The position numbers and the translations under genes were made by a program. A stretch of DNA of 64,000 nucleotides, from contig SPDT01000001.1 in NCBI GenBank assembly GCA_008477525.1, positions 5,084,001 through 5,148,000 on the forward strand. Reading direction: 5' to 3'. Shown here in pieces: positions 15,585 through 59,170 of the stretch (position 1 is the stretch's first letter; each line of letters opens with the position of its first letter). Under the pieces are notes generated by a model. That model had not been told where the DNA came from. It did no database searches and was given only the letters and a program-made list of their open reading frames with translations. Source of the stretch: Hypomyces perniciosus. Taxonomy: Eukaryota; Ascomycota; Sordariomycetes; Hypocreales; Hypocreaceae.

Positions 15585-18500
15585 TTATCGAAATTTATGT
15601 TGGAGCAGCTTGACGACGGCGTCATGCCCCCTAGAGGCGGCCCACCATAGCGGCGTCCGGCCGCCGTAGTTATCCTTAGCCTCGACGTCGGCGCCCTTGT
15701 CGAGTAGCAGCTTGACGACGGCGTCGTGCCCCCTAGAGGCGGCCCATAATAGCGGCGTCCGGCCGTCGTTATCCTTAGCCTCGGTGTCGGCGCCCTTATC
15801 GAGCAGCAGCTTGACGACGGCGTCATGCCCCCTAGAGGCGGCCCACCATAGCGGCGTCCGGCCTCCGTAGGTATCCTTAGCCTCGACGTCGGCGCCTTTC
15901 TCGAGCAGCAGCTTGACGACGGCGTCGTGGCCCTCGTAAGCGGCACACCATAGCGGCGTCCGGCCGCCGTAGTTATCCTTAGCCTCGACGTCGGCGCCCT
16001 TGTCGAGCAGCAGCTTGACGACGGCGTCGTGCCCCCTAGAGGCGGCCCACCATAGCGGCGTCCGGCCGTCGTTATCCTTAGCCTCGGTGTCAGCGCCCTT
16101 GTCGAGCAGCAGCTTGACGACGGCCTCGTGCCCCCTAGAGGTGGCCCATAATAGCGGCGTCTGCCCGAGGTCGTTATCCTTAGCCTCGACGTTGGCACCC
16201 TTATCGAGCAGCAGCTTGACGACGGCGTCGTGCCCCCCAGAGGCGGCCCACCATAGCGGCGTCCGCCCGCTATTATCCTTGGCCTCGACGTTGGCGCCCT
16301 TATCGAGCAGCAACTTGACGACGGCATCATGCCCCCTAGAGGCGGCCCATAATAGCGGCGTCTGCCTACCGTTATCCTTAGCCTCGATGTCGGCGCCTTT
16401 CTCGAGCAGCAGCTTGACGACGGCATCATGCCCCCTAGAGGCGGCCCACGATAGCGGCGTCTGCCTACCGTTATTCTGGGCCTCGACGTCGGCGCCTTTC
16501 TCGAGCAGCAGCTTGACGACGGCGTCGTGGCCCTCGTAAGCGGCACACCATAGTGGCGTGCGACTGTTCTTATCCTTGGCCTCGACGTCGGCGCCCTTGT
16601 CGAGCAGCAGCTTAACGACGGCGTCGTGCCCCCTAGAGGCGGCCCACCATAGTGGCGTGCGACTGTTCTTATCCTTGGCCTCGACGTCGGCGCCCTTGTC
16701 GAGCAGCAGCTTGACGACGGCGTCGTGGCCCTCGTAAGCGGCACACCATAGTGGCGTGCGACTGTTCTTATCCTTAGCCTCGACGTCGGCGCCCTTGTCG
16801 AGCAGCAGCTTCACGACGGCGTCGTGCCCCCTAGAGGCGGCCCATAATAGCGGCGTCTGACCGAAGCGGCTATCCTTGGCCTCGACGTCGGCGCCCTTGT
16901 CGAGCAGCAGCTTCACGACGGCACGATGGCCATAATGCGACGCTACCATGAGATCCGTAAAATTCTCAGCATTAACCAAACCTGTAGTCTGCCAATAGAT
17001 CCCAAACCATACCGAGTAGCTCTTCGAATCCGGATCACAAATTCTCAGAGCGGAGCGTACAATAGCAGCCTCATCGACAATACTGGCCTCGCGGAAGTGA
17101 GCACCCCAAGCTTTTGCTGCATAATCTAAAAAGGCCTTGCTATTGACAGAGTGGCGGCTTTCCCTGTCTGCACCTGTTGGAAGGCTAACGTCGGAGTTGA
17201 AAAAGTTCAGATAGAGCACGCAGAGCTCTGCAAGAACGGTATGTGCGTAGCGAGTCGTAATAGAGTGATGCCAGCCTAGCTTTGATGGGATAGTTGTGGG
17301 CGCAAGGAGAAACTCGCGGGCCGTTTGATGAAGGAAATAAATCTTGCCATCATAGATTGAGATGAATAACCCACACCAAGATCTGAGACGCAACTTGAAG
17401 TCCTTTTCATCCTCTAAGTCGAGGTCGTCAATACTCTGTAATGTATCGTCTATATTCACGGCAATATTCATTTCTGAAAGGCTCAGTGGTCGACTAGCGG
17501 CTAAAATGATACTCAAAGTCTTCCGAACCATCGGGTGCTCCTTAGAACGGGCAAGGATCTGCTCGTATGCCTCATTGATACTCCTTGGAAGTGTTGTAAT
17601 AGTGGACTCGACTCCCTTCAGTGTCTTTTTAAAGTCTTCTTTCTTCAAGTAGTCGAATACAAGGTATACCCACAGATAAGTGCGGTGGGGAGTCTCCTGT
17701 AGTCTTTTCTCTAGGTAGCTCATAATTTGGGGGGAGAGGCCCTTTTCCTCTGATAGCTGATTAATCCGATGTGTAATGACGCGATTCACCTCCTGGCTGA
17801 TAGCTTCCGACTCTTCCTCTCCCGGTATACGGATATTTGGAAAGGCATTTAATAGGCTGCGGAACTTGGACACGATCTGCTCATACGGGCGGCATGTTAG
17901 AAGGTACTTGAGCTTGCCATGACCCAACTGGTCGCGGCGGAATTGGCTCTCTATATTCCGCATCAGGTCCGCAAACTCGGATTCGGCACATTCATCTAGT
18001 GCATCAAGGACCATAATTACAGGTCCTGCCTGGGGATCCTTGATAGCATTTCGTAGAACCTTCCAGAGCGATTCTGTAGAGTTGATCAACCCTGGCCCAT
18101 CCCTGCGGACTTCTGTCATGGCATGTTCGATCAGGCACGGCTTCTGGGAGAAGAGCTGGTGAAGCAGTGCGCAAAGGGCTTGCCGGACGGTATTCTGGTC
18201 TTGGTCTTTGAAGAAGAAGTAGCAGATAGTTGCTGATCGTGGCAGGTCGTAGTCGACCATGTATTTGGCCAACACTGACTTTCCACAGCCAGGATCCGCT
18301 GATACCAGCAGAGGGCCGGAGTCCTGTTTCAACCATATATGGAAGTGCTCGTGCTTGAGGAACCACATACACGTGTCTTCAACCCTTTCTTCCACTCGGT
18401 CTTTATACCACTCGTATGTGGCGTCCCGATTGCCAGTCGTGAGGCGGAACAGCTGGTGACACTCTTCTTCTTTTTCGGATAGCCTCTTGTTGGCGAATTC

Positions 18501-19644
18501 TTTCTGGGCTTGGAGATGCTCCATTGCAATGTCCTGATGCTTCTTTGCAGTATCCCACTGCTCCTTTGCAATATCCCGATGTTCCTTTGCAATGTCTCGA
18601 TGCTCTGTACATAGAATTAATATGTATTAATAGTACGATTTAGAGACCCTCGGACTGACCAGACAGAATATCGCCGATCTTCTTCTCAGCTTCAACTTTA
18701 TTAGGGGGGATTCGGATAAGAAGATCTTTTGCGTAAGCAGCTGCCGCCATTGCTGCATACCCTTGCCACTCCTTACTCTTGTGCGAGTCTGAGTAGTCGC
18801 AAATACCGCGAATGACCAGACACGGAAAGTGGTTCATTAGCCCTGCCGCTTCCATTTCAAAACACAGAACATCCTTCTCCGCCGCAAGTCTATCCCTTAT
18901 TGTGGCGTCCTTCATCAACTGATTCGCCGAAGCGATTGTGCCGTAGTGTATGGCCGGGTTATCGTCGTTTTCTGTCCGTTCAGGTCGAGGTAGTAAGCTC
19001 GATGGATCATCACCGCAAAGAGCTGTACAGCCTATTTCATCGACCGAATGAATGAGTCCGCTTTTATATAGCCTGTCGCTGCTTGCGCCTGGTCGCTCGT
19101 ACTCCAGCCGTAATCTTTTGTTCTTCTGAAGAACATTGCCGATTGTCTCTTCAAGTTGATGTCCCTTCCTCTTGTACTGGGCCTTGATTCCGTTCACAGC
19201 AGTTCTTAAGACCGTTGGTGGCTGGTTCAAGAACTGTGTATGTTGGAAGCTCCGGTTTTGTATGGTTTTGCCAAAATCGTATTGGAACACGCCACCCTCC
19301 CCATCGCGAGGAGCACTAACAACAACGTCGCCTAGACGGATGTCGTGCTTCGTGCTTGGCGCACCACCGCCAATGCCCACCATCAGACCGATTCTGATAT
19401 TAGGAAAGCTATGTAGCATATCTCTTGCGACACTGGCTGCGGAAGCTATTCCATACTCGCCGTCAGGCAAGACAGCAATCACCACATTGTGCTTCCCAAT
19501 CTTGCCCAGCGTGTAATCATTATTGTCGTGGGGAGAGATATATTCGGGTGAATCGTGCTCTTCGTCAAGAAAGGCTTCTGCGGCGACGCGCTCCGTGCTG
19601 ATGGCGCAGATCCACCCAATAGTGTAGTCTTCGGGGTTCGACAT
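15585..19644 (-). CDS. NOD-like receptor: nucleoside phosphorylase-like - NACHT - ankyrin
   Basis: Exon 1 is 19644-18660 and exon 2 is 18604-15585, joined over a 55-nt intron (GTCAGT donor, TGTACAG acceptor, phase 1), giving 1334 residues. Residues 1-325 form a PNP/UDP-phosphorylase-like domain ([42 protein letters not shown]). A linker of five heptad-like units (HRDIAKE type) follows. The NACHT NTPase has Walker [10 protein letters not shown] (about 430-438) and Walker B LDALDE (about 528-533). The C terminus holds 13 ankyrin repeats plus a partial fourteenth. Fungal NLRs of this type act in non-self recognition and heterokaryon incompatibility; this one's ligand is unknown. Start ATG 19644 was preferred over 19692 because [11 protein letters not shown] is the usual family opening. 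Confidence 0.85.
15588..16962 (-). repeat. Near-identical ankyrin-coding tandem repeats
   Basis: Units of 99 or 102 bp, in frame, encode [24 protein letters not shown] ankyrin repeats. I count 13 full units and one partial. Neighbouring units differ mainly at two variable patches (WWAASRG/WCAAYEG and DNYGG/DKNS/DNGR). The array is much more GC-rich than its flanks and shows no RIP-like damage. Confidence 0.85.
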
Positions 19645-20305
19645 ATTCGTTTGCGGATCGAGGTCTTGTCGATGGCAACTTGGCTGGGTCAACTTGCGCT
19701 GATCTGGGACCGCGGAAGATTCGAATGGTGTGACTTGGAAGATATTAAACGCTCAGCCCCTCTCATAGATGGGAGAGATAAACGCAAAGAGACCTCAAAT
19801 GAGGAAATGAGGCTGGCTGTCGCGACCTCGCTGAGATTGGGCTGGAAGGAGGGCAAGGAGGGGTTAGGCAGGACCTTGGCTGCAGCTACTTGTCACGTCT
19901 GCCGATCCTGGTTTAATCCGAGAGAGCTCAGAAAGTTACAAATCAAATAGACAGCTTGTCGACGCCGCAGCCGACAGTCTCCTGCTGTGCGATCAGCCAT
20001 AGATCGGTGCTTGCCCAGGCATTGCTGGGGAGTTGAAGGCTCGGTGCCATGGTAATTGAGATAACTGATGGTAATAGGTATTCCTGCGATTGACAGCTAC
20101 AGTGTAGTTGGTACGTTGACTATGCTGCGCTTCGTCACGTGCTGGATTTCTACGAAATTTGTACCTGAGTCATGGCTAGGTGTAGCTCAAGTATCATGTG
20201 TGCATGGGCGGTAATCAGCACTGTGATTCACATGTCCATGCGCTTCAATTTTTAAAAGAGTTTATTTGGACAGGACGGCGGTTTCGCTCCCAACTGTACA
20301 TATCC
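19645..20305. promoter_or_regulatory. NLR upstream region / gap
   Basis: This gap lies between the NLR start and the decayed zinc-cluster gene. It should hold the NLR promoter. A plus-strand frame here is mostly antisense to the NLR first exon. I see no defined motif. Confidence 0.35.
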
Positions 20306-21206
20306 ATGCCTTCTACAACTCATCGTCGTGCTCGCCGCAGGTCAGTTGCTTCCTTTCTTGCACACCACAATGTCTAAATAAGGCGTTTGCTGAAACAAAT
20401 TATCACAGCCATGTTAAGTCACACACCGGTTGTGGCACTTGGTAGGTCAAGTATAAATTGCCCCTTTCCTTCTCCAATCTAATATTCGTCACAGTAAACG
20501 TCGACACATGCGATACGACGAGGTTTTTTCCTCAGTGGTCAGTGCCCGGTTTTTAAGTGCGAGTGGAACTGACAACCTATGTTGCCAACCTTCAGCGACA
20601 AATGCACTAAGCATAACGTCCGCTGTTCGTATAATGACAATAAACTCTTGGATGCAGACAGAATAACTGCGGATGAGCCCGATCTCCTGTGAACGCCTGA
20701 GATGAAGGCAGTCATTCACGAATGGCAGAGGACTGGGATCTTCCCCTTCCCGTCTTTGCAGGCTCATGTGCCTCCTATCCCGCGTTTATACTCAGCCGAG
20801 GAGTTGCGACTGATCTACCACGTCGCGAGCCTATATCACCGGCTCGTCAATACCAGTCAATTCGCCTTATGGGCCAGTAATATTCCCACAAGTTTCATTT
20901 CTCCGAGCTCCCTACCCAATGGCATTGTCAACACCACGAACTAGGCTGCTTACCATTAGTGCTACGACGCCATACGTCATGCAAGCGTTACTCGCTCTCT
21001 CCGCCACGCATATCGGCCTTTACAATAACTGTCCCCAAGTCGGTGGAATGGCTTTCAAGCGCAGCAGTGCCGCTGTAAGCGGCTTACGCGAGGCTCTCGG
21101 CCGTTTCTCTTGCGAGACTTCTGATACCGTCTTGGTGGAACCGATCACGCTTCTGTACTTTCCTTCCGCACGACAACGCGAAACCAGACATATCCTTCCC
21201 CCTCCT
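20306..21206 (+). pseudogene. Zn2Cys6 transcription factor, decayed copy
   Basis: This copy matches the gene at 52074 exon by exon. It carries damage: the third zinc-cluster Cys is Tyr (TAC at 20514), one extra T shifts the frame just after it, and a Trp codon is TGA at 20690-20692. The TGG-to-TGA and TGC-to-TAC changes are G-to-A, as expected of repeat-induced point mutation or a similar process. The later frames (LYSAEELRLIYHVASLYHRL; SATHIGLYNNC) still read as the fungal-specific regulator middle region. The 3' part is joined directly to downstream sequence, with a piece of the sister copy missing. Confidence 0.75.
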
Positions 21207-21421
21207 TAATCACCGTTGCTTGAAGCCCCCGAGAATAGGAAATTTTGATGCCGGAGTGGGATCGTGTAAATGAGGCTTGCGGTTGTTAGATCCAAGATAC
21301 GAATATATGAGTCACGCAACCTGTTAAACTGACGCAATCATCCATTGTGAATTGTAGCTTATATAGGCTAGGTCATTTCCCACTGACAGATGATTGGCGT
21401 CAGCAGCTGGTGAACAGTTGA

Positions 21422-21751
21422 CTATCTTTCTGTCACCACTATCCCACATAAAAAACCCCTGAGTTGATTGATTTCATTTTGGTACAAATCCCTCTGTTGT
21501 GTGAGATGTTCAAGTTGCTGCTGTACCTGTTGTAGCTTTGCTTCAGTTTCGGCAATCTTCCCCAGTACCGCTTGCCTATTGCGATAGCGTCTGGACGCCC
21601 CAGCACCACGCCCTCGGCCCTCGGCTGCTTCCCTCCATGCCCGTGAACGGTCTATGGGAATCAAAATCGGTGCCTCGTTTCCTGGCAGAGACATATTAAG
21701 TTTTTTTGCTTCCATTCCATTGAATACCTGCATGGTTGGCTCCTTGGTCAT
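21422..21751 (-). pseudogene. bZIP-like protein, N-terminally truncated copy
   Basis: This 109-codon frame carries a basic region (ASRRYRNRQAVL) followed by heptads (AKLQQVQQQLEHLTQQRDL), typical of the short fungal bZIP-like proteins that have a VPVD/IPID...R lead-in. Its partner at 53489-54073 extends much further upstream, so this copy has lost its N terminus. It lies tail-to-tail with the zinc-cluster pseudogene, as in the second block. It may still give a DNA-binding, dimerising peptide, but I treat it as a fragment. Confidence 0.55.
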
Positions 21752-21986
21752 GCTCGAAAAGAACCCACGCAGCTACTTTCCATGTACTCAACGCGTCTCC
21801 AAGCTGTGGTAGGGCTCAAGACTTCATCGGGAATTCCAGGGACTTCACTATTCGGCGTTACTATTAGCTGGTTAAGTGCTTGTTAAATGGTTACTAACAA
21901 TCGACAAATTTCTCTATTCCGAACCAAGCCTTGATACTCTGCGACTGTCTCAACAGTAAGATAGGTGGCGAACCACAGTCCCATCT

Positions 21987-22208
21987 TCACCTCTTATCAA
22001 GCACGACTTCATCACGGCCCACCGAAATGTTTCCACAACCAAGACTGTTATTCTCCCTCTGTAGCACGATAGGACCTCCCTCGCCACTGTACTTCACCTC
22101 CATTGAAAGGCTGCCAATGCAAGCAAGAAGCGACCTATGTAGCAAGATATGTGCGGTCTTGTCGTCCTCCCGAGTACGGATGAACGGTTGCGGCGGCATG
22201 TTGTCCAT
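21987..22208 (-). pseudogene. Fragment related to the acidic protein at 25228
   Basis: The 73-codon frame aligns with the C-terminal part of the 179-residue protein at 25228-25767: shared DKT.HI..HR.LL, CIGSLSMEV/CLDSLSIKV, IVLQR/IMLQR and VDRDG-like steps. The acidic N-terminal half is absent. It is probably a broken paralogue. Confidence 0.5.
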
Positions 22209-22321
22209 CAGATAGCTGATTGCGCTGTAATGTATGACGATTATCCAAGGCCGATGTTTTCACACTCATGTTAGCGTATAGGGGCAGTCAATAGCGATCA
22301 GCGCTATATTATTGATTGATA

Positions 22322-22508
22322 TGATGTTGTCGGATAGCGTGGATTGGTGGGAAATGGCCGTAGAAGGAAACACGAAGGAAATTGCCATGTGGAACACAAG
22401 GAGGATCTAAGAGAGTGAAGAAGAAGAACGCGACGCGTTCTTCTAGCACTATAAAATGGCTGGCCGGAAAACTATCAGTGATGGAGACATGGTTCCTAAG
22501 ACAACAGA
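22322..22508 (-). mobile_element. MITE-like repeat 'P', copy B
   Basis: This is the inverted copy of the repeat at 13735-13915. The palindrome is at 22424-22442. The termini begin TGTTGTCGGATAGC and TGTTGTCTTAGG, so a 7-bp TGTTGTC inverted repeat ends the element. Two overlapping ORFs of 70 and 81 codons here are by-products of the element. Confidence 0.6.
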
Positions 22509-22741
22509 AAGGAGAACGCAATGAAGAAGCAATTGAGGTGCTATTCGACCCCTATTCGCGTGTGATGACTGCTGACTACACGATCCTCGATACGCGACAG
22601 ATGTATTCTTTCGATCGTAATTTGTGATAAACACTGAGGATCATGCGGTGCTTCCCTAGATTTTCAAGTATATAGATATCAAAGTCCATCGTTCCACTCG
22701 TTCGGTTCATCCACCAGGCGTTCAATACTAAGCACTAAAAG

Positions 22742-24016
22742 TCAATTCTCCTGTGACACTAGAGTCTCCTCAATAAGCAGAACTCCGATAAGCATCAAGT
22801 CCCAATCGTCAGGCATATCCAAGAGGCCAACAGACCCTGGCCGGGGGAGAGCGTAAATTATATCATCCCAACGGTTTTCATCCCATAGAGTTGCGCCCCA
22901 GAGATTAAAGTGTCCACCCAACAAAGTCGACTCATGCCGGATCAGGTCAGATAGTTGCGGATCACCACCAAGCACCTCAATCTGCCTGTCTTCGAATCTC
23001 CTCCATGATTGGAAATTCCCCTGGTCGTCTTTCCAGAATGGCCGGTAGCGTTGAAAGTGCTCCCTCCATTTCCGGGACCAGCTATTACGTAGTGCTTGAG
23101 AAAGAATTGCGTCAAAGGCGAAGCCACGCTCATATAATTTAGGTAGCTCTTGTGATTTGGTAACCTCTTTCAACCTAGACGGACCAATCAAGCAAAGTGC
23201 ACGGTGAATACCATCAAGACCGGAAACCAAAATGCAGAAGAGCGATTGATCGTCTACTACTTGGTCACAGGCTATTATGTTAGTATTAGCTGCTAAGCGG
23301 ATAGATACAACTGTGAGAAACCTACTGATACCATAGAATGCTCTTCGAAAATATGCCTTAATTCCGACGACTTGAAATAACTCCCACGGCGCCATCAGAC
23401 GCTCGACAATGCACTGGTGAAACTCGTTTCGGAAACGGTCGAAATGGTATGCATTATGGTGTGGTCTGGTAGCCAAGTTTTGACAGAGGGAAGAAAGAAT
23501 ATTAAAAAGATAAATCGCCTGATGAACTCGGATGCGCTCCGACAGAGATGGCTTAGGGAAACGGACGGCGTTCCATAATGGGAATAATTTTTGCTTTTCT
23601 CCATAGGAACAATCTCCAATCACTAGCCTACATAGCTCCGCAACCTTCTTCTCTGTACGAGAAATTAGTAGAGCCTCTCGCAGTGAAACAGTAACGGTTT
23701 CTGCGTCATCACGGCGGCGGCGAAGCCTGTCAAGGTACAACGTAATATCGCTAAAGTCGTTAATAAATTCAAAGTTGGGTAAGGAATGATTCCCGTTGAG
23801 AAAAATGAAGTTCACGATTGCGTGGGCGTAGGTTTCGTGAGGAAGCTCATTCTTAAGGACAGAAGTTGTGATCAGTTTCTTATAACATGAAAAGGCTTTG
23901 TAGAACAAAGGATGAGCTAGAACCGCATTTTCCAAAGAGTTGACATCTGGCAAGAACTCAAGGAGTTTGCAGACAAGGTCAATTGGAACAGCAGTGACCG
24001 AAGCCTTTAACCGCAT
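22742..24016 (-). CDS. F-box-like protein
   Basis: Exon 1 is 24016-23326 and exon 2 is 23271-22742, separated by a 54-nt intron with GTAGGT donor, TACTAAC branch and AATAG acceptor, giving 406 residues. Residues about 8-50 form an F-box-like helix set (AVPIDLVCKLLEFLPDVNSL, then AHPLFYKAF). F-box proteins link substrates to SCF ubiquitin ligases. The remainder is helical without a known module. The frame is open upstream to 24295, but that part encodes transposon-end sequence repeated nearby, so I start at the ATG in the innermost repeat. That ATG (CAAAATGCGG) lies in the repeat itself. Confidence 0.6.
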   Translation of the reverse strand: MRLKASVTAVPIDLVCKLLEFLPDVNSLENAVLAHPLFYKAFSCYKKLITTSVLKNELPHETYAHAIVNFIFLNGNHSLPNFEFINDFSDITLYLDRLRRRRDDAETVTVSLREALLISRTEKKVAELCRLVIGDCSYGEKQKLFPLWNAVRFPKPSLSERIRVHQAIYLFNILSSLCQNLATRPHHNAYHFDRFRNEFHQCIVERLMAPWELFQVVGIKAYFRRAFYGISRFLTVVSIRLAANTNIIACDQVVDDQSLFCILVSGLDGIHRALCLIGPSRLKEVTKSQELPKLYERGFAFDAILSQALRNSWSRKWREHFQRYRPFWKDDQGNFQSWRRFEDRQIEVLGGDPQLSDLIRHESTLLGGHFNLWGATLWDENRWDDIIYALPRPGSVGLLDMPDDWDLMLIGVLLIEETLVSQEN

Positions 24017-24240
24017 TTTGTATGTATGGAGTTTCTCCGGGCAAGGACCATGTTCTAGCCCGCTGTAATAAGAATTTATGTATGTATGATTGAGGGCGGC
24101 GTACTTCTTCATGTATGCCAGCATAAGATGGAACAACATGGTTATACGAAGTACTCCGTACAGGTGACTGAAATCAGTCCGCATTTTGTACGTATAGATT
24201 TTCTCCGGGCACCGACCATGCCTTAACCCACTGTGGATGG
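24011..24240. repeat. Two solo ends of element 'G'
   Basis: Two imperfect copies of a CCGCATTTTG...CTCCGGGCA...GACCATG block lie about 166 bp apart (from 24012 and 24178). The same block forms the inner part of the left terminus of element G at about 24632. They look like solo ends or nested fragments directly upstream of the F-box gene. Confidence 0.55.
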
Positions 24241-24625
24241 CAATTGCATGAGATTGACTAATACAAGTATAAGAGTACTCCATATGTAATTCCACAACAT
24301 GGGTCGAGCATTAAACGGAACAAAACCATAACGGTACCCAATATGAGAGGGACCAGAAACGGTTGAATGCTTCTTAGAGGGGAATGGCAAGTTTAGGATT
24401 TTACGCCTCGGCATATGGATATATCGGGTACAGTGCGTATTGCTGTCTATTTACACGTGGAACTTTAGAAGCACTCAACTGGAATCCTAAAATGGTTTAT
24501 AAAGTTGATGCCCAAAGTATCCGAACGTCAGCCATTTTACACCAACACATTCAAATTCAGAATATACATACATACATATAAGAACACTCCACCAAGAGCA
24601 TATTTGATACACTAGAGTGCGAAAT

Positions 24626-25056
24626 GAGTGTCCGCATTTTGCATCTATAGAAAGTTTCTGGGCACAGACCATGGCTCTGGCTTCTGTAGCCTATACTTCT
24701 ATAAACACAGCCTAACCGTGCTTTGTTACATAATGTTTACCTAACATTACATAAGAACAATTTCGCCATTGCTATATAGAGGGGAGCGGCAAGAAACTGC
24801 CGAAAGTCGCTCTAGGCTTTTTATCAATAGAAAAACCTTTAGATCCAGAAGTGTTGTATTTTAAAGTTGCTGTTCTTGACTTTGAAGAATAAGAAAGATC
24901 AAAATCTCAATTTATAACATTAAAAAGCCACAAATGGCTTTTGTTAGGCTAACGTTAGAGAACAACCTGCCAAGCTTTATTGTATAGTAGTGGCTACAGC
25001 AGGCAGTCTGGTCCGTGCCCAGAGAGTTTCTAAACACGCAAATCGCGGACACTGGA
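24626..25056 (-). mobile_element. MITE-like element 'G', copy 2
   Basis: This diverged, inverted relative of the element at 13927-14358 has terminal GAGTGTCCGC / GCGGACACT sequences and a longer inner match (AGAAA..TTCTGGGCAC.GACCA). Internal landmarks such as the CTAACGTTAGAGAACAACCTG block are shared. No coding capacity is seen. Confidence 0.6.
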
Positions 25057-25227
25057 TGTGGCTCATGTATGTAGATACTTAAACGGTCGTTAATAAAAAA
25101 AATAAAAAGAAGTGCGTATGTATGTATGTACATAAATACGATTCAAAGAGCTTACCATTTGAAGTGTTTAACTTAGGGTGCAACTTAGTGGGTTGCACCA
25201 TTACACAACATTTCGCAAGTCTCAGCT

Positions 25228-25767
25228 ATGTTCGGTGACCCTGAAGACTTAATTGATTGGGGTAGCGACCCTGAGCCAACTTTTTGTGGCCACCATGGCG
25301 CTGGTGTCATCTCTGCCGAATACACAGCACACGACACAAACAATGACACGGAGAGTAGCACCCACCGACGCGACACTAGCGATAGCACTATCAGTCCGGA
25401 TGATAATGCGACAAGTCGAGACAAAGTTCTTCGAAATCGAGAAGTGTCTGTGTCAGCTTTGGAATTAGTGCTACATTTAAAATCTGGGCCAGACCTTATG
25501 TTCAACCGCGGTACCCATTACAAGCTTTGGGTGGACAAGACTTCGCATATCTGGCCACATAGATTGCTTTTAGTTTGTCTTGATAGCCTTTCAATTAAGG
25601 TAAGGTGCAGTGGGAAAGATGATTTTATCATGCTACAAAGGAAGGACAACACTTGGCTAGGCTATAACACTTTTGAGAATCTGTCGGTGGACCGAGACGG
25701 AGCCTCACGCTTAATAATAGGTGAAGATGCAACTGCATACTTAACACCTATCCCGCCACCACGATGA
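25228..25767 (+). CDS. Unrecognised acidic protein, 179 aa
   Basis: This uninterrupted frame starts MFGDPEDLIDWGSDPEP. The first 75 residues are acidic, rich in Ser, Thr and Asp. The second half is a compact, probably beta-rich region (LVLHLKSGPDLMFN, HRLLLVCLDSLSIKVRCSG). A truncated relative is at 21987-22208. No known domain is visible to me. Confidence 0.5.
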   Translation: MFGDPEDLIDWGSDPEPTFCGHHGAGVISAEYTAHDTNNDTESSTHRRDTSDSTISPDDNATSRDKVLRNREVSVSALELVLHLKSGPDLMFNRGTHYKLWVDKTSHIWPHRLLLVCLDSLSIKVRCSGKDDFIMLQRKDNTWLGYNTFENLSVDRDGASRLIIGEDATAYLTPIPPPR

Positions 25768-25864
25768 TGGTTACGGGCTAGTTTGTACTAGAGGAGTGGT
25801 ATGAATAAGGAAAAGAGGTGTAATTGGATATATCATTGCATTTTTTATTACATATTATTACAGC

Positions 25865-25965
25865 TAGCTGTCGGATAAGGTATATAACATCATTTAAGCT
25901 ACCACTGTAATACATAACAGAGTAGGCCTATACTTTTGCCGTAGTGATGAAATCTGACACTAGCT
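25865..25965 (+). repeat. Dispersed repeat 'T', copy 1
   Basis: A stretch opening GGATAAGGTATATAACAT and passing through AGGCCTA.ACTTTTGC recurs in the same orientation at about 55420-55505. It is non-coding and AT-rich, and its type is unknown. Confidence 0.5.
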
Positions 25966-26735: not shown

Positions 26736-26848
26736 TGTAATTAGATACTTAGCGGTCGTTAATAAAAAAAAAAGATAAAAACAGTTAAGAGCGCAATAAA
26801 ATTTTGATGCACCAAAATTTAAAGCTGAGTATTTATTTGGCTCGCTTG

Positions 26849-48858: not shown

Positions 48859-50711
48859 ATGCGTCCAGCAGACACAGGATGTTCTTCGGATGCCTCTATC
48901 TACTGGGCTATTCGCCAAGAAGATAGAAAAGGCAAATTGCTCGGCGATCTGGCATTGGAATCTCACCAACACAACCTTTCCTCCGACCATGCGCGAAGAT
49001 GCATACGATCACTGTTAAGAAACGAGACGCTGAAGGTGGCATTTGACCCCGTGTTAAGCGTACCTGGTCTGCGGGACGGCATGAGGATCAGCACTCTCCA
49101 CAAGCTCTGTAGCGCAAAATGCGATGAGGTAAATGGCCCACCCGCCCCTTTTAGCCCGTGTTCGGCGGTGTAACCAGACACTAGGAGGCAGCAGCATATC
49201 TTGCTCACATCATCGATATATGGTTCAAGATAGCTTTACAAAGCAAAGATGCTATGGCTAAGATAACTGCCGAGGACATCGAGGCTCTAGAGCTTCGCTG
49301 CCCGAAGTTCTGCCCTCGGGATGCGGCGGAGATCCAAAAGATAATCAATCAAGGTCGCATATTCAGAGCATTCAGCCAAGAGGAGCGTGTCGCAATGAAA
49401 GCCGAAATCCTTTCCGTAGATTGCGTGATCCCTTCTTTGTACACCTTCTTCCACGACGTACACCTCCTCGAGACTTGCGCCGCGAGCATGAAGCATATTA
49501 TCACACCTGGCAACAAGACCATTCGCACGGCACTCAGAGACAGTTTCATGCCGATGGGGCAACGAGCAGAGCCAGAAGTGGAACAGGATGTGGCCCTCAA
49601 TTTCGAAAATGCCATGGAGTCGTTGTGGATTTTCGTCTTGCAAAATTTTCAACGAATGCCACGACCATCTGAGAGAACATACAGGAGACTTCTCGCTACG
49701 TATTTGGTAGAGAAACCACACGAAGAAACACTCTTGCAATTCGCCAAGTTCGCCCAGAAGTTAGGCTTCCAGACTCCTGAAATCGAATATCTAACGCAGG
49801 CGACAGTCGCTCACAACAACGAACATCGTACTGACCCCCCGTCTCCGACCAGCAGTCAGCAGCTGCCGACAGGACTGCTTCAAAGCACTGCTCTAGTGGA
49901 CTTCTTAGCTGCGAGGAGCTCTACCGGATCTGCCGAGAAGTCTGCCGAGGAGTATGTCAAGGCCTTGAGGCGACGATGTGGCCGCCCAAAACATGAGTCA
50001 TATCAACGGGACCGGACATTCCTCACCAAAGAGATTCTACACTTTGATTTCAGTCTATTCAATATCCAGGGTCCAGATATTGCGCCATTTTTTGTCCTGA
50101 GGTCCCAGTACCTTGCCTTCTTCGCGAGCTCTGGAGTGCTATCCGATTACTTATCGGCATATGAATCATCAGATACTGATGCTGAGGTTGCTGAGGTTGC
50201 TGCGGCTGTTGAGGCTACTGAGACTGCTGAGACCGCTGAGACCGCTGAGGCCGCAAGACCGCTGAACCTTGGAGAAAGCATAATGAGATCAAGGAACTAC
50301 TCTGAAGAAGCTGTTTCTGTATTATCTCTTACTACGGAAGATGATGAGGTCGTAGTCCACGAATTGGCAGTAGAGAATCTAGTGGATACTACGCCCATAT
50401 CGGAAGACCAAGCACAAACAGTAGTGCCCCATTCTATTTACATCATGTTCAAGGCGTTTCGAGAAGGCCGTTTTGAGGAATTCAAGCAAGCCGATGCGAG
50501 CAATCCAACCACTGTGGCGGAGACGGCACGGGGATTAATGAGAGACCATAAGATGAAATTGTTCTCTACTGACCTGCGGCCTCTTATGCCAGAGGAGTGT
50601 TTGGACTCGGCAACGGTGTCTGGTGTAAATGCAATTGTTCTCCTACCCGAAAACGAAGTTGAGATCTCGGATAAGTTGCGGAAAGCAATTTCTCAACTGT
50701 GTCAGAGATAG
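48859..50711 (+). CDS. DUF3723 family protein, probably N-terminally truncated
   Basis: Exon 1 is 48859-49128 and exon 2 is 49185-50711, over a 56-nt intron (GTAAAT donor, ACACTAG acceptor, phase 0), giving 598 residues. DUF3723 landmarks are PGLRDGMRISTLHKL, CDE at the splice, LELRCPKFCPRDAAEI and LSVDCVIPSLYTFFHD. A low-complexity EVAEVAAAVEATETAET stretch sits in the middle. Known members are longer and begin with an N-terminal region (HGHHR-type) that is absent here, so the 5' end may be lost. DUF3723 is a fungal-specific family of unknown biochemistry, recurrent in Starships and in subtelomeric or accessory DNA. Confidence 0.75.
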
Positions 50712-51928
50712 CGATTTTACCAAAGGCCCTGCCGTGCTTGGGTGGTCTGAACAATAAAATAATGGTTGTTTATAGTCGCAGGTCAAATTTCGAAGACAAC
50801 TGCGTGTACCCACTGGCTTGGACTTGTATGCCTCCACTTTTTTGTCCTGGTCTAAGTGCTTGTCTTATGCCTCCCGCTAGTCGATCCTCTTAGATAGAAG
50901 CGTTCACTGCGGACGTCTCGCCACTCTACCAGATCTAAGCATCTAGCAATCTCGTCCGGTCTCTTTAGCAGTGTCCTCCACGCGAGCTACACAATGGCTA
51001 GCCCTCTCCAGGCAACGCAATGTAGGTCCAAGCCGTTTTAAAAACAGTATGGCAAGAAACAAAGACATGTGGCCCACACTGTAGACGCTCGGCTATTCAC
51101 CCCTAGTCCCTAGAATCGACCGGACATCCAGCAGCTGGGAAACTGAGACGATACAGTGGCTTATGAATGAGGCAGCCCCAAATGGTCTGACTTGTGCTGA
51201 GATTGGAAATCAGGGAATTTCATCGACGACTACTCGCTGTCCCATGCCTATCATCGTGAATCGTGCCATTACAAGCAATTGTGCGGTAAACTATCGCCTT
51301 TGGTCCTCAATCCCAGCTTTTTAACCCAGAGAATCTAACAAAGGGTCTAACATCGGATTACGGTTCACAGGGCGGCCCTAATGATACAACACAAGGTGGT
51401 TACAACAGTACGATGGGTCCAATACTTACACTGCGGGTTATAAAACTGCCTAATAATATGTACTTCGCTATCCATAACTTTTACGGAGCACTTTATGCCA
51501 TCCCCTTTATCATTGAATCATATGGGTGTGCTCTCTTCAACCCGTTTATTTTGAGTTTACCTTGTAGTCTAATTCTGCCACTTACCATCTATCCGTTTCC
51601 AATGACCGACAGCGTCTAAAAGTAGGTAATAAAAATTTCACCTCACCTTTGGCTTGGCGCGCCGCTGATAACTAAATTGGCCAGTTAAGACGAAGTATCC
51701 ATCCTGTCCACATTGTCAAAATTGGATCTGGCGCTTAGGGCCCAACTTTGCCGTTATTAAAGGCAGAAAAGGCAACTTTTAGACTAAGAGAATAAATTGC
51801 GGGTATGATGGTCATAAGAGCTAAATTTAAAAGAAAAGAATGAAATGAATGAAAAGGAATTTATATGTATATACATACATCTGTACATATTAACTCAAAC
51901 ATTTTTGCTAGTTCTGAGCATAATACTT
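50712..51928. other. Gap with dispersed-repeat traces
   Basis: No gene is supported. The stretch about 51740-51850 resembles 14440-14530 (AAAGGCAGAAAAGGCAAC..., then a GGGTATGATGGTC-like part), suggesting another old dispersed repeat. Confidence 0.4.
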
Positions 51929-52066
51929 CAATGGAACGGAGACTAACTGATAGGTGCTCCTGTTCTCAGTAGTTAAAGTGCCTAATATTTAAGCTCTAGC
52001 TAGGGCCCAAATTCCACTCTAGCTACTGAGAACAAGAGCAACTGTCAGTTAGTCTCCGTTTCATTG
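51929..52066. mobile_element. Foldback/MITE-like inverted repeat just upstream of the zinc-cluster gene
   Basis: Two 52-bp arms (51929-51980 and 52015-52066) are inverted repeats with about seven mismatches; the outer ends read CAATGGAACGGAGACTAACT. The loop is 34 nt. The right arm ends 7 nt before the zinc-cluster start codon. The decayed copy at 20306 lacks this structure, so it was probably inserted after the duplication. Confidence 0.75.
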
Positions 52067-52073
52067 AGCCATC

Positions 52074-53060
52074 ATGCCTACCACAACTCGTCGTGGTGCT
52101 CGCCGCAGGTTAGTTGCTTCTTTCCTTCAACACAAAATGTCTATGTAATATTTGCTGACCAAATTATCGCAGCCATGTCAAGTCACGCACCGGCTGTGGT
52201 ACCTGGTATATCAAGTCCAAATCACTCCGCACCTTCTCCAGCTTAATCTGTGTCACAGTAAGCGTCGACACTTGCGATGCGATGAGGCCTTTCCTCAGTG
52301 GTCAGTACCTAGTTTTTTAGGCGCAGGCGGAAGTGGACTGATAACCTATTTTGCCAACCTTTAGCGGTAAATGCACTACGCATAACGTCCGCTGTCCATA
52401 TAATGACAGTAAGCTCTCGGATACACATCGAACAAATGCAGATGAACCCGACCTCCTGTGGACGCCCAAGATCAGAGCAGCCATTAATAGATGGCAGAGA
52501 ACTGCGGTCTTCCCCTTCCCGTTTCTGGAGGCTCATGTGCCTCCTATGTCACGTTTATATTCAGTCGAGGAGTTACGGCTCATCTATCACATTGCAACCT
52601 TATATCACAGGCTTGTCCACACAGGTCAATTTGCCTTATGGGTCAGCAACATTCCCACGTAAGTTTTATTTATACCGGGTTCCTTATTTAACGTTACATA
52701 CTACTAACTCCATGTACTAGCCTTCTTACTATCGGTGCTACAACGCCATACGTCATGCATGCGCTGCTTGCTCTCTCCGCTACGCATATCGGCCTCTACA
52801 ACAACTGTCCCCGCGTCGGTGGAATGGCCCTCAAGCACAGCAGCGCCGCCATAAGTGGCTTATGTGATGCCATCAGCTCCTTCTCTCGCGACACTTCCGA
52901 TGCTATCCTGGCGGCAGCTCTTGTACTCTCCTGGCAGGCGACAGATAGGTGAGCTCTAGATACCGGCGACTGCCAACAATCGCTAGCTTATAACGTCCAT
53001 AGTTCAATCAGGGAGTCGCATGTACGAGGTGCTTGTACGGTAGGAAACACCCTGAAATAA
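52074..53060 (+). CDS. Zn2Cys6 transcription factor, C-terminally short
   Basis: The six exons are 52074-52108, 52173-52205, 52259-52300, 52365-52658, 52721-52948 and 53003-53060; every phase matches, giving 229 residues. The zinc cluster spans three splice junctions and is perfect: C-x2-C-x6-C-x6-C-x2-C-x6-C (CGTCKRRHLRC, DEAFPQ, CGKCTTHNVRC). The middle region (LYSVEELRLIYHIATLYHRL; LLALSATHIGLYNNC) belongs to the fungal regulator family seen in many Eurotiales. Relatives run about 350-400 residues; here the last exon diverges and stops after GNTLK, so the ligand/activation part is missing. It may act as a DNA-binding decoy, or it may be a recent pseudogene. Confidence 0.7.
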
Positions 53061-53488
53061 AGCTACCCGGTGTGGCGGAATGTAGCTAAAGCAGGCAGGC
53101 TCAGATCATTGAGATTATGTACAGATGGCGGAACCAATCACGCTTCTGTGCTTTCCTTCCGCACGACAACACAAAACCAGATATATCCTTCCCTCTCCTT
53201 AATCACCCTTACTTGGAGCCGCTGAGAGTAGAAGAATCATTGCTGGAATGGGATTGTGTAAATGAGGCTTGCGATTGTTGGATCTAAGATACGATGATAT
53301 GAGCCACGAAACCTGTTAAACTGACGCAATCATCCATTTCATATTAAATACGTACGTACCAAAATGACAAGGACCGAAACGAAAGGGGCGATTGGCACCT
53401 ATGTGAAAAAGCGCAGGCCTACGCAGTGATATTCATTTCCCTTCCATAACTGCCTGTCATCGGCATTAACGGCTCCTGAGACAGCTGA

Positions 53489-54073
53489 CTATCTCTCCAC
53501 CACCAATACCCGACACAAAAAATCCCTGAGTCGGCCGATTTCATCTTGGTATAAATCCCTCAGCTGTGCAAGATGCTCAAGTTACTGCAGTACCTGTTGC
53601 AGCTTTTCTTTATTTTCGGTAATCTCGACCAGTACCGCTCGCCTATTGCGATAGCGTGTCGACACCCTAGCACCACGCCGTCGTTTCTGGTCCATTTCCC
53701 TCGATGCCTTTGAACGGTCTATCGGAACCTGAATTGGTGCCTCATTTCCTGGCAGAAGCATATAGAGATATTTCATTCCTTTCAATGCCTGTAGTTGACT
53801 GTAAAGGTCACCCAGCTGGGAGTCCGGTCTCGTTAGAGTAACTGTTTGATCGCGATTTTCGGATACCGTTCCCAGAGGTTGGTGAATCCCAAGAGGTCCA
53901 GTTCGTCCTGCCTGATAGTGGTCGTAGTAAGGGCAGAAATTTTGAATAGGCTGAACATGGGAGGATCGGCTGGACAGTGCAGGTTCGCCGACACTTGCAA
54001 TTAGTTGCCCATATGCTGTGTGGTCTGGTGCTGTCCACTGTGGCGCGGGATTGAGCAGAGAATTGATCTTCAT
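53489..54073 (-). pseudogene. bZIP-like protein with premature stop
   Basis: The frame from 54073 encodes a 60-residue lead, the IQVPIDRSKASRE segment and the basic region (RVSTRYRNRRAVLVEI). It then meets TAA at 53584-53582 where the sister copy reads CAA (Gln). The frame continues after that stop (LEHLAQLRDLYQDEIGRLRD) to the same C-terminal end as copy 1. CAA-to-TAA is C-to-T, RIP-type. The leucine-zipper part is therefore lost unless the stop is bypassed. Confidence 0.65.
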
Positions 54074-54709
54074 GTTGAGAGTGCCTTTTCTATACTAGCA
54101 CTTATGAAGTGTGCTTTAACCGCAGGGAGACGGAGCAGAATCTGGCTCTTGAGCAAGAGTTGGACTTGGCCGGGTTGTGAATAGGGAAAATAGAAAGTGG
54201 CAGGAAGAAACGGAATGAAGGGCAAAGGCCAACGTGCGTCAAAAAGCTCTAAAGTGCAAGCATATGCTGGAAACAGTTGCTCATCCTGGTCTCATTTCTC
54301 CGTCGTCAGCTAGCTTCCAGACATGGGAGAGCAATAGAGCCCTTTATATAGATACAGACCGGAAGATGATTAGACAAGTTCTCGCCGAGCCGGCAATGGC
54401 CCCGCTAGGGAGCACCTTTACTCCATCGGTAACCAAGGTGTTTAGTGGTAGCTTGACTGTTAAGATTACCACCCTGATGATCGGGTTGAATTACTAATAG
54501 CTCATCGTCCGAGTTTAGGAGGGCAACGCCACACCCAACGCGCGGAGCTACCTGAACAGTAATCTGCAACGTAACGAGAATATCTAGGTCATTAGTGGCA
54601 TTCGGTCGTGACAGCCTGATTGGGATGGCCATGCCTATATGACTTGTCTATTCTCTGTAATTAAAACAAAACGACATCTCCGCCGCGGACAATAAATTAG
54701 ACTGGCATT

Positions 54710-55072
54710 ATGGAGATGCCACGGATCCGACTACCCGACAATGTCCGACGCATTACGAAAGGTCAACGTCGAATCTTTGTTACAGCAAAAGCTGATCAGA
54801 TAATCCAATGTGCCAATGACGACCGGGCAAAGAAACTCGAAGCTCGAATGGCCGGGAAGAAAAGCCAACAAACCAGTACAAGATTCGCAGTGAGCGTTGA
54901 GAAAGCCGAAGCCACAATCCGGTTAGCATCCTCATTCTTAGCTGCCCTTGCCAGCCAGGAGAACGCAGTTTTACTTGGGGTGCAAGAGAGAAATAGGAAC
55001 GTACATAGAGCTCAAGAGAGCCTGCAGAAGTGTAAAAAGGAAACAATAGAAGTATTGAGTACCTTTCTATAG
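54710..55072 (+). CDS. Small basic helical protein, 120 aa
   Basis: An uninterrupted frame opens MEMPRIRLPDNVRRITKGQR and continues as charged helices, with a probable coiled coil near the end (NVHRAQESLQKCKKETIEVL). No domain is recognised. A minus-strand frame at 54405-54632 (VTLQITVQVAPRVGCGVALL) might be a first exon of another small gene, but no splice partner is visible. Confidence 0.4.
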   Translation: MEMPRIRLPDNVRRITKGQRRIFVTAKADQIIQCANDDRAKKLEARMAGKKSQQTSTRFAVSVEKAEATIRLASSFLAALASQENAVLLGVQERNRNVHRAQESLQKCKKETIEVLSTFL

Positions 55073-55937
55073 AGGGAAAAATAACAGGCCAGAAAAAGGA
55101 TAGTCGACATTGGTTATGGTCTTTTAGTTTTCTCAGGTTAAAGTTTTGACAACAGTGACTCACTTTAGTTATGTTCATAAAATGTAGGGTTACCTACCGA
55201 AATCCGTTATACAAGATTTTATAATGCCTTTTTGCTGTTGAGCATCATGATTACTCAAGTTATAGTGGTGCTGGTGTTTATGGTGAAGAAGAGAAGTTGT
55301 AGGTGATCTCATAAACTACAGAGTACCGCTAGAAGAAATGTTACTGTTACTACTGGCTGGGTGGTTCTACTCTTTTTTCATTTGGGTCTTTCTCTTGCAG
55401 CTAAAGGGTAAAAGATGTTGGATAAGGTATATAACATTATTTAAACTACTACTGTGAAACACAGCAGGCCTACACTTTTGCTATAGCAGTTAATTTGACA
55501 AGAGAACGATATATATAGGTATATAGATATTTATAAACAAACCCCCCCAAAACACATCATTCTTGATATATCAAAGCCGCTAAGAAAGGTAGTCATTAAA
55601 TGTGTGCTTTACGCCCCTTGGTTCTCCTGACGCCCTAGCCGCCGCTGCAGTATTTGTTCCCAACTATGTAAGCAGAGGTTGCTTTGTCCATGTTGCTTAC
55701 CCTAGACCCTCGCATCGTGTCGGTGGCTACTCTTATTCACCGGCCGGCATCTATCCTCAATTACATTTATAACCTAGCAAATATGGCCTGCTTGGCCGAT
55801 CCATTTTCGCACATTTTTCAAGGTTCTCGGTAGTTAGAGCTAGGCAAGGTGCATATTTTCTTCTCTAGAGCGTGATGTGGGATAAGGAATGGATAACAGT
55901 GGTTAATGTCGCGTGCTGGCATAGCCAAATTTCCAAA
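55073..55937. repeat. Gap containing dispersed repeat 'T', copy 2
   Basis: About 55420-55505 matches 25865-25965 in the same orientation (GATAAGGTATATAACATTATTT..., AGGCCTACACTTTTGC). The rest of the gap holds no supported gene. Confidence 0.45.
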
Positions 55938-58900
55938 TCACTGCAACCTTTGACGCTTCAGCGGCTGCTTCATTGTATCATCTACGCGCGTCCGCTTCCG
56001 GTGGTCACTTGTGCCAAAGTATGCATCAAGTTTTTGCTGTCTAATTAGCCGTTCAAGAGTAAAAGGCGAACCACTAATGTGGCAGATAGATGACGGGCCT
56101 TCTTGTAGACTGATTTCAAGCTGGTGTTGTCGGCTCGGTAAATGAAATGCTACCCTTTGACGAAAGTTCCCGACATCATTTATCATCACATGAGGAGACA
56201 CTTGAAAATTATCAGGCAGTGTTCGCCCTTGGCATCTGAAAGAAGCACAGGCATGATGTAGCTGACGCATGAACGCATCGAATTCTGCTGTTCCCGCTCG
56301 CAGGCGACATAGAATGTAGCCTACGCCTTCGTAAATGCCAGATACGAGCTGGGGTGGATGAGCCGGGTCTAACTCGAAAAGGAACAGCTCGGCCCGGATG
56401 CATTTCGCGAGCTTTTCCATGGCGACTGATCCAAGTGCGGCCTCTCGCGCGATTCTACTGATTTCGCCCATACCCTCTACGTCGTCCAAGGCAGGTTGCT
56501 TGGCCTTGACCTCGATGTCGAACCGGAAAAACTCCCCGCGGCCGCCCAATTTTTGGTGGGCCATCAACTGTTTCCAAGCATCACTAGAGTCGCCCTGTTT
56601 CCAAAAAGCACGGGACAGTCGGGCCGGAAATGAGTCTTTCCACAAAGCGCGCCTCGGTGCATCGCTATCATGACTTGGCGAAGTTGCGCCTGTCCCCAGC
56701 GACACCACAATGCTTGGTTCCGTCGCGGCTGGAAAGATGGCCGCTGCTTCTTTGAGTGCAATTGAGGCAGGATTGTTGAATGTCAGACCGCCGTCTTGGA
56801 AGGTCCCCACACCTTCAATGCGATGCGGAGTAAAGTAGCTTTTGCCAACCCTGCTTAATATCAGGATGCCTAACGGACGAGCTTATAATCGACTTACTAT
56901 GGCGCTGCAGTACAACAGCGAAGACTGCTTTGACTTAGTACGCTGCTATATGCCTGAGGACGAGGGGGGGTTCTCTGAAGCTTAACATACATTTCCCAGA
57001 GAGGTACATTGTGGATTCCAGTGCTGGAGTCGAGAACGCTGTAGTCTGGACGTGGTCAGGCTTGTGTTCATCGTCCTTTATGCGGTTATGCTTACTGCTA
57101 TTGTCACGGCGCTCCCCGGCTCCGTTGTAGTTAGTCACGACGAAGGTGCTTGTGTCGTCTGTGCTAGTGAGCGTCACGCCGAGCAATGTGCCCATCTCAC
57201 TTGCTTCCTTGGAGTCTACGATGGCGCGGTCCCGACCGTAAACGTCTTGCTGTATCATCTCTAGCCTTTCGGCCGAATACTTACTGTCTACCAACAACGA
57301 GATTACGAACTGAACGGCTGGCGATATGATGGGGAGATGCCCGAACAAACGTATGAAGAGTCGAAACAGCTGGCGCTTCTCGAACGCTAACTTTGATGAT
57401 AACTCAAAATACTCGATACATTTCTCGATGGGCCAGCCATTAATGTAAAGCGCACAAGCAGTCATGGCACCTGTCATGGCGGTCAGCTTGCGTTCGTCAG
57501 AGAACACAGGATCGGATATCTCGAGTCACCAGAGCTTGTTCCGTATACGATATCGAAATTTCGCTGCACCGGATACGGCAGTGCAACGGCGTATTGCAAG
57601 ACCTGGAGAAATTCCAAGGGGGCTCGCCCTCGAGTTCCCCCGCCGTCAATGCTCAGCACGCGAGCTGTTGCGGTGTCTGGTTTGACACGGATACGTAGGT
57701 TGCCTGTGTCGAACCCACAAAGGATGCATTTGTCGACGCAGAGCAGCCAAGCGTCATCTGGACTCGGACAGTGGAAGATCCTGACGCATATCTGGCATAT
57801 CCAATGCCCGCATGGGAGGCGGTATTGGGGCCTGCGCCGCAGACAGCTGAGGCATGACTCTTCCGATAGCGGGAAGATGCTATGCCTGCATAGATGGGCC
57901 AGGTTCTGTAGATGTAAATCCTTTGACGATTGAAGTTCTTTATATCGATGGAATTGCTTGGTAACTTCGTCTTGGATTATGGGGATTAGGTCGAATGGGA
58001 GTCTCGGAAGATTAGACGCCTCTCGGTACGTCTCCAGGTCTTTGCTCACTTGCATGCATGCGTCGTGATAGAATGTGTGAAAAACATCCTGGGGTTTGAA
58101 AGCTAGCAGACAATTCAGCTTTAAGTACGCCTAAGAGGTTGCAAGTCATGATTGTCATGCTTACAGTGCATTCCGGGGGGGTACTGGTCTAAAATGAAAC
58201 TGGAGGCTATGAGTGGGATTGCAAAGCTTTTCAACAAAGCAGCATCATCAATTAGCTTTAGAAAGCCCACAAGGTGCGCTGAAAGGTCCGGGGCAGCGGG
58301 GTTCTTCGCTCTCGAAATTTTGATGAAATCAAACGGCTCCCATGGCGACTTGACGGCGCTCTCCGGGGCGGCAAGGAGGAATTCCGCGGTATGGCGTGCC
58401 GAAAAGAGCAAGCCTGAGTCAAGTCGGTCGTGTTGGACGAGATCCAAGGACCTGAGAAGCTCTTTACGGAGAGGCTGGCACATCTTCGATTGCACTCTCT
58501 TTGATCTCAATCCACGAGTGTTATTGTAGATGGTTACGACGCGGATGCGCCGAAAATGATCCCCAAGCGACACAGCGTTGATGGCACTCAGCATCGGCTT
58601 TTTCTGTCCTCTCGCTACGACAAGAACCAATGCGGGGCGAATTGGCGTCGTCGATGACTGACCCTTGTCGGCCCATGCCGTCAGGCGGCGTATAGCGCTG
58701 TCGATGCCTCCAATGTCCCCAACAAACATACAGACGACATCTGCGAATGGAGAAAGTAGCCTATGGTAGATGTGGTCGGACGCCTCTACCGCTTTTGCTA
58801 TCGATTTTTCCTCCAAAAAAGGTTGATCAGCCGTCTCATGGCAATGTTGCAGCTTACACGATCTAGGTAGTCTATTATGGGAGGGTATATCACCATCGCC

Positions 58901-59170
58901 GACGATGATCGGTCTTTTGGCTCGAAGGTGTGAAACTTGTAGATGGTATTCTCCATGGCATTTTCGACCCGCCAGATGACCGTATTCTAGACCGAGAGTG
59001 GAGAAAGCAAGAGACTTGGTCTGGTTGCCGATCAAAATGATGACACCGACAGGTTCGTCTACATTTTGAATGTCTTTGAGAAGCTGGCGTGGCCGGTCCG
59101 ATGTTTCAAGAATGATTTGGTGATTTTTCTTCCACAGCCTTAGCCACCCAGTATGGCTGCAATTGCTCAT
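55938..59170 (-). CDS. Patatin-like phospholipase with internal zinc-finger segment
   Basis: The six exons are 59170-58165, 58102-57530, 57470-57096, 57045-56991, 56924-56898 (27 nt) and 56838-55938; all phases agree, giving 978 residues. Residues 1-335 are an N-terminal region of the large fungal PLP type (FADVVCMFVGDIGGIDSAIR). Next comes a Cys/His cluster resembling RING or B-box (CLSCL, CGHWICQIC, CILCG). The patatin core has the DGGGTRG oxyanion motif, the GTSSG nucleophile elbow split by an intron, AAPYYF and the catalytic DGG (TFQDGGL). Patatins are Ser/Asp-dyad lipid acyl hydrolases. No truncation is seen. In fungi, patatin domains occur in NLR-type and allorecognition proteins, and PLPs are recurrent Starship cargo. 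Confidence 0.85.

Follow-up and report, generated by a model that had tools for sequence, protein, structure and literature searches.

A Starship Captain and 5' End Beside a Window Holding One of Six Copies of a FRE-DUF3723-PLP Cassette in Hypomyces perniciosus

Introduction

NLR, patatin-like phospholipase (PLP), ferric reductase (FRE), and DUF3723 genes are listed as conserved accessory families of Starships, the giant transposons of fungi (PMC12506042). All four gene types are present, by Pfam scans of its reading frames and of the genome, in the stretch of Hypomyces perniciosus DNA described here. This stretch (the window) is 64,000 nucleotides long and corresponds to C3:5084001-5148000 of a 44.0-Mb genome in 23 contigs, where C3, C12, and so on denote contigs and positions are given as contig:position. 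An earlier note had proposed that the window lies inside a Starship or consists of nested Starship remains. Described here are a captain gene and a Starship 5' end to the left of the window, and a cassette of FRE, DUF3723, and PLP genes that is present six times in the genome. Statements about published systems refer to the available portions of the cited articles.

Starships of the Hephaestus family (PMC12153272) have their captain at the 5' edge, insert at TTAC(N7)A, and carry a large cargo; the locus described here shares all three features. This locus differs in being inserted in a dispersed repeat altered by repeat-induced point mutation (RIP) and in possibly exceeding 332 kb, and the likeness is drawn from the target site rather than from captain phylogeny. 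Sanctuary, from Bipolaris sorokiniana (PMC12506042), likewise has a tyrosine recombinase (YR) captain, with FREs, NLRs, and PLPs as accessory genes. Sanctuary itself is bounded by direct repeats, has empty sites, and is 170-196 kbp in length, whereas the present locus holds a fixed FRE-DUF3723-PLP block that occurs six times. In comparison with both systems, no 3' end was found here. The Starship regions of Verticillium (PMC12289983) resemble it in their sizes of up to 625 kb, in the lack of a RIP signature in most of their inner transposable elements, and in segmental duplications between regions. The larger Verticillium elements typically contain several YR genes, while a single DUF3435 gene lies between the boundary and the contig end here. 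The exchange of cargo between Starships (PMC11623301) also places the same gene block in several elements with differing surroundings; that case concerns a formaldehyde-resistance cluster across species, and the present one concerns the auxiliary trio itself within one genome.

Results

Captain and Left Boundary

A genome-wide profile search for DUF3435 (PF11917) returned 34 matches. None lies within C3:5084001-5148000, in agreement with the earlier note, which had seen no DUF3435 frame in the window. Three matches are exons of one captain at C3:5030531-5031835 on the + strand, 53 kb to the left of the window and reading toward it. The note had named the lack of a captain within about 500 kb as one part of what would refute a Starship; the search beyond the window supports its proposal. 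The three exon matches contain no stop, have conserved Arg and Tyr stretches, and carry ARPTSILRIRF, YNLRYNAANEF, and HANSNPFQRHYLGR, which we take to be the catalytic boxes of the captain. The Tyr of HANSNPFQRHYLGR is invariant in all 16 aligned sequences, which include 15 of 95 captain relatives. The same search gave no second DUF3435 match from 5031835 to the end of C3.

A sharp left boundary is located at C3:~5029338, 1.2 kb before the start of the DUF3435 match, and a 217-aa frame lies between the two. From this one point on the captain loci are similar, and their upstream sequences differ. When a 1001-bp query across the boundary was used (40 of 95 candidates scored), its left 144 bp matched a dispersed repeat and its right part matched other captain loci. 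The boundary interrupts this RIP-mutated repeat at TTACTTAAATAA. Uninterrupted copies of the repeat read ATTATTTACTTAAATAATATC (in longer form, ...TTATTTACTTAAATAATATC...), while the filled site on C3 reads ATTATTTAC to the left of the junction and TACCTTAAACAATGAG to its right (in longer form, ...TTATTTAC then TACCTTAAACAATGAGAC). The uninterrupted site has 84 matches in the genome. These empty sites come from repeat copies elsewhere in the same genome rather than from this locus in another strain. TTAC(N7)A is kept in eight of ten uninterrupted copies, with TTAT in one and GTAT in one. Judged from the left side of the filled site, the insertion appears to fit the TTAC(N7)A target of Hephaestus (PMC12153272).

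The composite RIP index is positive in all 30 of the 500-bp segments to the left of the boundary, where the GC content is 34.5%. To the right, as far as C3:5278000, it is positive in 66 of 497 segments with a GC content of 47.9%. The corresponding values for the window itself are 12 of 128 segments and 47.7%.

Six intact copies of the 5' end were identified (C3:5029338, C8:4180178, C7:1333856, C5:1592478, C4:678660, and C8:1155703). Their upstream sequences differ, and the end is preceded by TTAC in five and by ATAC in one. The five copies other than that on C3 follow different flanks, which indicates that the family has moved. A further copy at C3:4420388 is missing its first 665 bases, and bases 2-664 are found reversed at C3:2190619 (C3:2189957-2190619). 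A 2.23-Mb inversion with a breakpoint inside the element end would produce this arrangement, as would a scaffolding error. At C8:2075248-2076543 there is a degenerate relative of the captain, whose DUF3435 frames contain 24 stops. It belongs to a 77% relative of the captain region (C8:2074039-2076853) that is probably a Starship killed by RIP.

FRE-DUF3723-PLP Cassette

The FRE, DUF3723, and PLP genes of the window (Table 1) form a cassette with copies at C3:5131-5142 kb (the window copy), C3:4600-4610, C8:2705-2716, C12:108-119, C12:297-307, and C3:5304-5314. These six blocks hold all six window-type DUF3723 genes of the genome, 6 of its 12 patatin matches, and 6 of its 19 NAD_binding_6 matches. 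Gene order and orientation are identical in the six. The spacing is 2008-2024 bp between FRE and DUF3723 and 8349-8687 bp between DUF3723 and PLP, with the FRE point of the two C12 cassettes moved by 9 bases, as the match there begins at profile position 4. A 4.4-kb query covering FRE and DUF3723 gave 12 matches. Six are full-length, comprising the window itself and five others at 97-98%. Of the rest, four are shorter than 150 bases, and two on C4 are partial, one at 84% over 1.65 kb and the other at 96% over 0.48 kb. Results of the genome searches with long queries are incomplete; the other cassette copies were absent from one of them, yet were found by the 4.4-kb query.

Because the three genes recur six times at fixed spacing, they constitute one linked block. 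Independent arrival of the four families was considered and is rejected for FRE, DUF3723, and PLP. The earlier note had counted four families as four separate signs; all four are indeed present, but three of them are a single cassette.

The window copy of the cassette, the one whose sequence was read, is not RIP-mutated, in a genome whose old repeat is, so the six copies may be recent or may have been spared from RIP. Two cassettes on C3 (5131-5314 kb) face opposite ways at a distance of 183 kb, as do two on C12 (108-307 kb) at a distance of 199 kb, and the inverted two-cassette layouts on the two contigs are similar.

A fixed FRE-DUF3723-PLP cassette is not described in the available portions of PMC12134995, PMC12289983, PMC12153272, PMC11623449, PMC11623301, PMC10175614, or PMC12506042. 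The founding Starship survey is outside this set, and no claim is made that the cassette, or anything else described here, is unpublished.

Cargo Between the Captain and the Window

The sequence between the captain and the window was compared with the genome using a 10-kb query, C3:5064001-5074000 (39 of 161 candidates scored). The segment C3:5068467-5074000 recurs in the same orientation behind two near-identical captains, at C3:4535858 (99%) behind captain C3:4420 and at C7:1356375 (98%) behind captain C7:1333. The third near-identical captain copy, C8:4180178, is only 6 kb from a contig end and could not show the shared block. C3:5064001-5068019 recurs, reversed, at C3:4446826 (98%). Parts of C3:5069733-5072573 have relatives at 74-80% behind three captains that are less closely related (C4:678660, C8:1155703, and C16:57720), and also at C3:129675 (77%) and C12:29743 (75%), where no captain is listed close by. 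C3:5069733-5072573 contains two frames; the one that was scanned has no Pfam match.

The region behind the C3:4420 captain contains NLR-like segments, FRE-DUF3723 (97%), PLP, and pieces of the window at 27-32 and 57-59 kb. This ties the window cargo to the captain lineage. It is not proof of one unit, as neither captain element has a known 3' end. Searches based on the target repeat, the 21-base 5' end, and the RIP index found no boundary between the captain and the window. Over the last 10 kb before the window, the proposed link draws on this result and on the cargo common with the second captain's region.

The repeated cargo segment in the window (Table 1) is also partly present at C12:84368-88206 (97%) and C3:5336630-5340448 (96%), with pieces at C3:4644353-4648057 (93-95%). 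Each copy on C12 and that at C3:5336630-5340448 lies 14-22 kb from another FRE-DUF3723-PLP cassette. An 18-bp tandem repeat of about 21 copies (window 27804-28179) adjoins a Cyclin_N frame.

Right Side of the Locus

C3 ends at 5361288, 332 kb from the boundary, and its last 600 bases contain no telomere repeat. The right halves of ten uninterrupted repeat copies gave no blastn match in the 264 kb from the boundary to C3:5278000, the remainder (C3:5278001-5360688) being outside this search. By pattern search, the right half of the target repeat has 79 matches in the genome, and on C3 none of them lies to the right of the boundary; the pattern is imperfectly sensitive, as 7 of the 84 intact junctions have no right-half match. 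Intact junctions account for 77 of the 79 right halves. The other two, at C5:1185553 and C16:221788, could be the 3' flanks of some insertion.

One copy of the target repeat (L040) matches C3:5196239-5196833, an AT-rich sequence inside the proposed element, at 92% over its bases 1812-2407. This sequence was rejected as a continuation of the target site, since the match falls in additional sequence that belongs to the left half of L040. The stretch common to the two is perhaps a small transposon.

Genes of the Window

The features of the window are given in Table 1. Pfam scans took in 30 of the 43 window frames of at least 150 aa. They place NLR, FRE, DUF3723, and PLP genes at about the positions that the earlier note had named, with a sub-threshold match for PLP.

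Table 1. Coordinates of features in the window (position 1 is its first nucleotide).
Feature	Position	Strand	Description	Basis
Whole window	1..64000		54.7-118.7 kb right of the 5' boundary (C3:~5029338); captain (C3:5030531-5031835) left of the window	
NLR gene	15588..19752	-	PNP_UDP_1 frame 18643-19752; NPHP3_N and ankyrin repeats 15588-18626	Pfam
Cargo segment (cut at query end)	27303..32000		Repeated at C12:321130-325907 (94%)	
FRE-DUF3723-PLP cassette	46598..59215		~12.6 kb; one of six genome copies	
Ferric reductase (FRE)	about 46598..48422	-	Several exons	Pfam; C terminus by eye
DUF3723 gene (type B)	48886..50708	+	Matched exons 48886-49128 and 49185-50708	Pfam
Patatin-like phospholipase (PLP)	55941..59215	-	Four frames	Weak Pfam match and motifs

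The FRE gene matches Ferric_reduct, FAD_binding_8, and the first third of NAD_binding_6. Its later exons and a plausible C terminus were traced by eye in the frames, and no Pfam match covers them. The patatin match of PLP scores 25.4 bits, under the cut-off of 27.7, and spans profile positions 1-37 only. The PLP frames carry SIDGGGTRG, YGTSSG, and DGG (GGGxRG, GxSxG, and DGG motifs), which we take to be the expected patatin motifs. A Cys/His cluster precedes the PLP domain; a RING-like assignment of this cluster was far under threshold (E about 2) and was rejected. FRE and PLP are putatively intact, as judged from their open frames; for FRE, this agrees with the earlier note, which had called it intact.

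The second exon of the DUF3723 gene scores 185.7 bits. Profile positions 1-102 are unmatched, and the gene may therefore have a further 5' exon. Its last ~90 residues are predicted to form a beta-grasp-like (ubiquitin/PB1-like) domain. A comparison of the DUF3723 and captain sequence profiles with solved structures gave nothing significant (best E of 0.016 and 0.03, respectively), and the DUF3723 model, which is poor for the whole exon, had no match at E ≤ 0.001 in a viral structure library. Named relatives of the captain and DUF3723 include those from Hirsutella, Metarhizium, Tolypocladium, Clonostachys, Ilyonectria, Colletotrichum, Trichoderma, and Drechmeria, a spread suggestive of a host in the Sordariomycetes and probably in the Hypocreales.

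The NLR gene has an NPHP3_N NTPase of the STAND/NACHT type and 14 Ank matches. A 99-bp ankyrin unit is repeated head to tail about 13 times with 86% matches (window 15604-16922). Two paralogues with the same strand and frame layout occur at C3:5044840-5047837 and C3:5254599-5258202, with the PNP_UDP_1 frame scanned only in the first. These have 2 and 7 Ank matches, respectively, compared with 14 in the window gene, so the length of the ankyrin array varies. The 16-base gap between the PNP_UDP_1 and NTPase frames recurs in two NLR paralogues of the region and is for this reason probably a conserved intron rather than a break. Two 2-kb runs of positive RIP index (5098839-5100838 and 5253339-5255338) were rejected as old boundaries, as they coincide with NLR ankyrin arrays.

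Frames with OrsD, DEAD, and Helicase_C matches are located at C3:5188278-5204931, 40-57 kb to the right of the window, and resemble telomere-linked helicase genes. A 1244-aa frame at C3:5221084-5224815 (-) contains 31 DUF7104 matches, with ankyrin matches near its end.

Discussion

The evidence for a Starship 5' end, with its captain 53 kb to the left of the window, is strong. We estimate a probability of roughly 75% that the window lies inside a giant Starship with this captain, or inside a nest founded by it. The captain, the sharp 5' boundary, and the match to the empty site favor this proposal, which is essentially that of the earlier note. Between one uninterrupted element and a nest, the odds are about even. 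Of these findings, the fixed six-copy trio is of most interest.

Several observations weigh against placing the window inside this captain's element. No 3' end was found from the boundary to C3:5278000, nor any partner for a direct repeat or a terminal inverted repeat; in these 264 kb, a search for the reverse complement of the 21-base 5' end that allowed up to 5 substitutions gave no match. The bridging query stopped at C3:5074000, which leaves 10 kb before the window. The region of this captain and that of C3:4420 do not have their cargo in collinear order, and no captain of this family was found beside the closest copies of window 27-32 kb (C12 and C3:5336630). An in-phase upstream captain of the same family is present on the contig of only two of the six cassettes, the window copy (101 kb) and C3:4600 (180 kb); at C12:108 and C3:5304, 108 and 47 kb of contig, respectively, remain in the direction in which a captain is expected. 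The gene set alone is not diagnostic, and DUF3723, FRE, and PLP were found to be absent from the Starships of Gaeumannomyces (PMC12134995, available portions). The analysis covers one genome only.

In a rival reading, the captain's element ended before the window, its 3' end having decayed or been recombined away, and the window belongs to a patchwork of segmental duplications and remains of other Starships with the same gene set. Blocks of the window do recur, with their order altered, at C3:4.42-4.65 Mb, C12:84-326 kb, C3:5303-5340 kb, and C8:2.58-2.72 Mb, as well as on C9. The four cassettes lacking a captain of this family in phase on their contig also suit such a patchwork, as does the captain copy split as if by a 2.23-Mb inversion, a split that suggests that element copies may recombine. 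We nevertheless consider it unlikely, as no RIP-mutated flank, second captain, or repeat continuation lies between the captain and the window, and a block of 98-99% identity that is common to two other captain regions extends to within 10 kb of the window, the limit of the query.

Much less probable is an assembly chimera, in which near-identical Starship copies were misjoined so that the captain and the window may sit on different elements. Three near-identical captain copies do lie 6, 49, and 332 kb from contig ends, and both the lack of a telomere repeat at the end of C3 and the 97-98% identity of the cassette copies would be compatible with a misjoin. However, an assembly of only 23 contigs suggests long reads, and no second place with the same arrangement was seen among the stretches searched. 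Scarcely credible is a reading without any Starship, in which the window is simply part of a subtelomeric accessory region with many NLR and related genes. A contig end within 332 kb and the OrsD/DEAD helicase frames and repeat-rich NLRs nearby favor it, but the captain, the sharp boundary, the empty-site match, and the 5' ends at several sites speak against it.

On the proposed reading, the captain would recombine the element end with TTAC sites, and the whole element would move by cut and paste. The element would span at least the 119 kb to the right edge of the window, and it may continue past the contig end, 332 kb from the boundary. Cargo would be reshuffled among several such regions, with FRE, DUF3723, and PLP carried inside as one fixed cassette. 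It is a speculative and rather doubtful possibility that the three genes, which are usually treated as separate recurrent passengers of Starships, are a co-inherited functional module copied between Starships as a unit, in which DUF3723, with its ubiquitin-like/PB1-like adaptor end, works with the phospholipase and the reductase, for example in a self/non-self or element-maintenance system.

With one insertion caught in its target, 84 matches to the uninterrupted site, and six intact ends, this genome is a natural test bed for Starship targeting. The role of Starship accessory genes is called unclear (PMC12506042, available portions), and the fixed six-copy cassette suggests that these genes should be studied jointly rather than singly.

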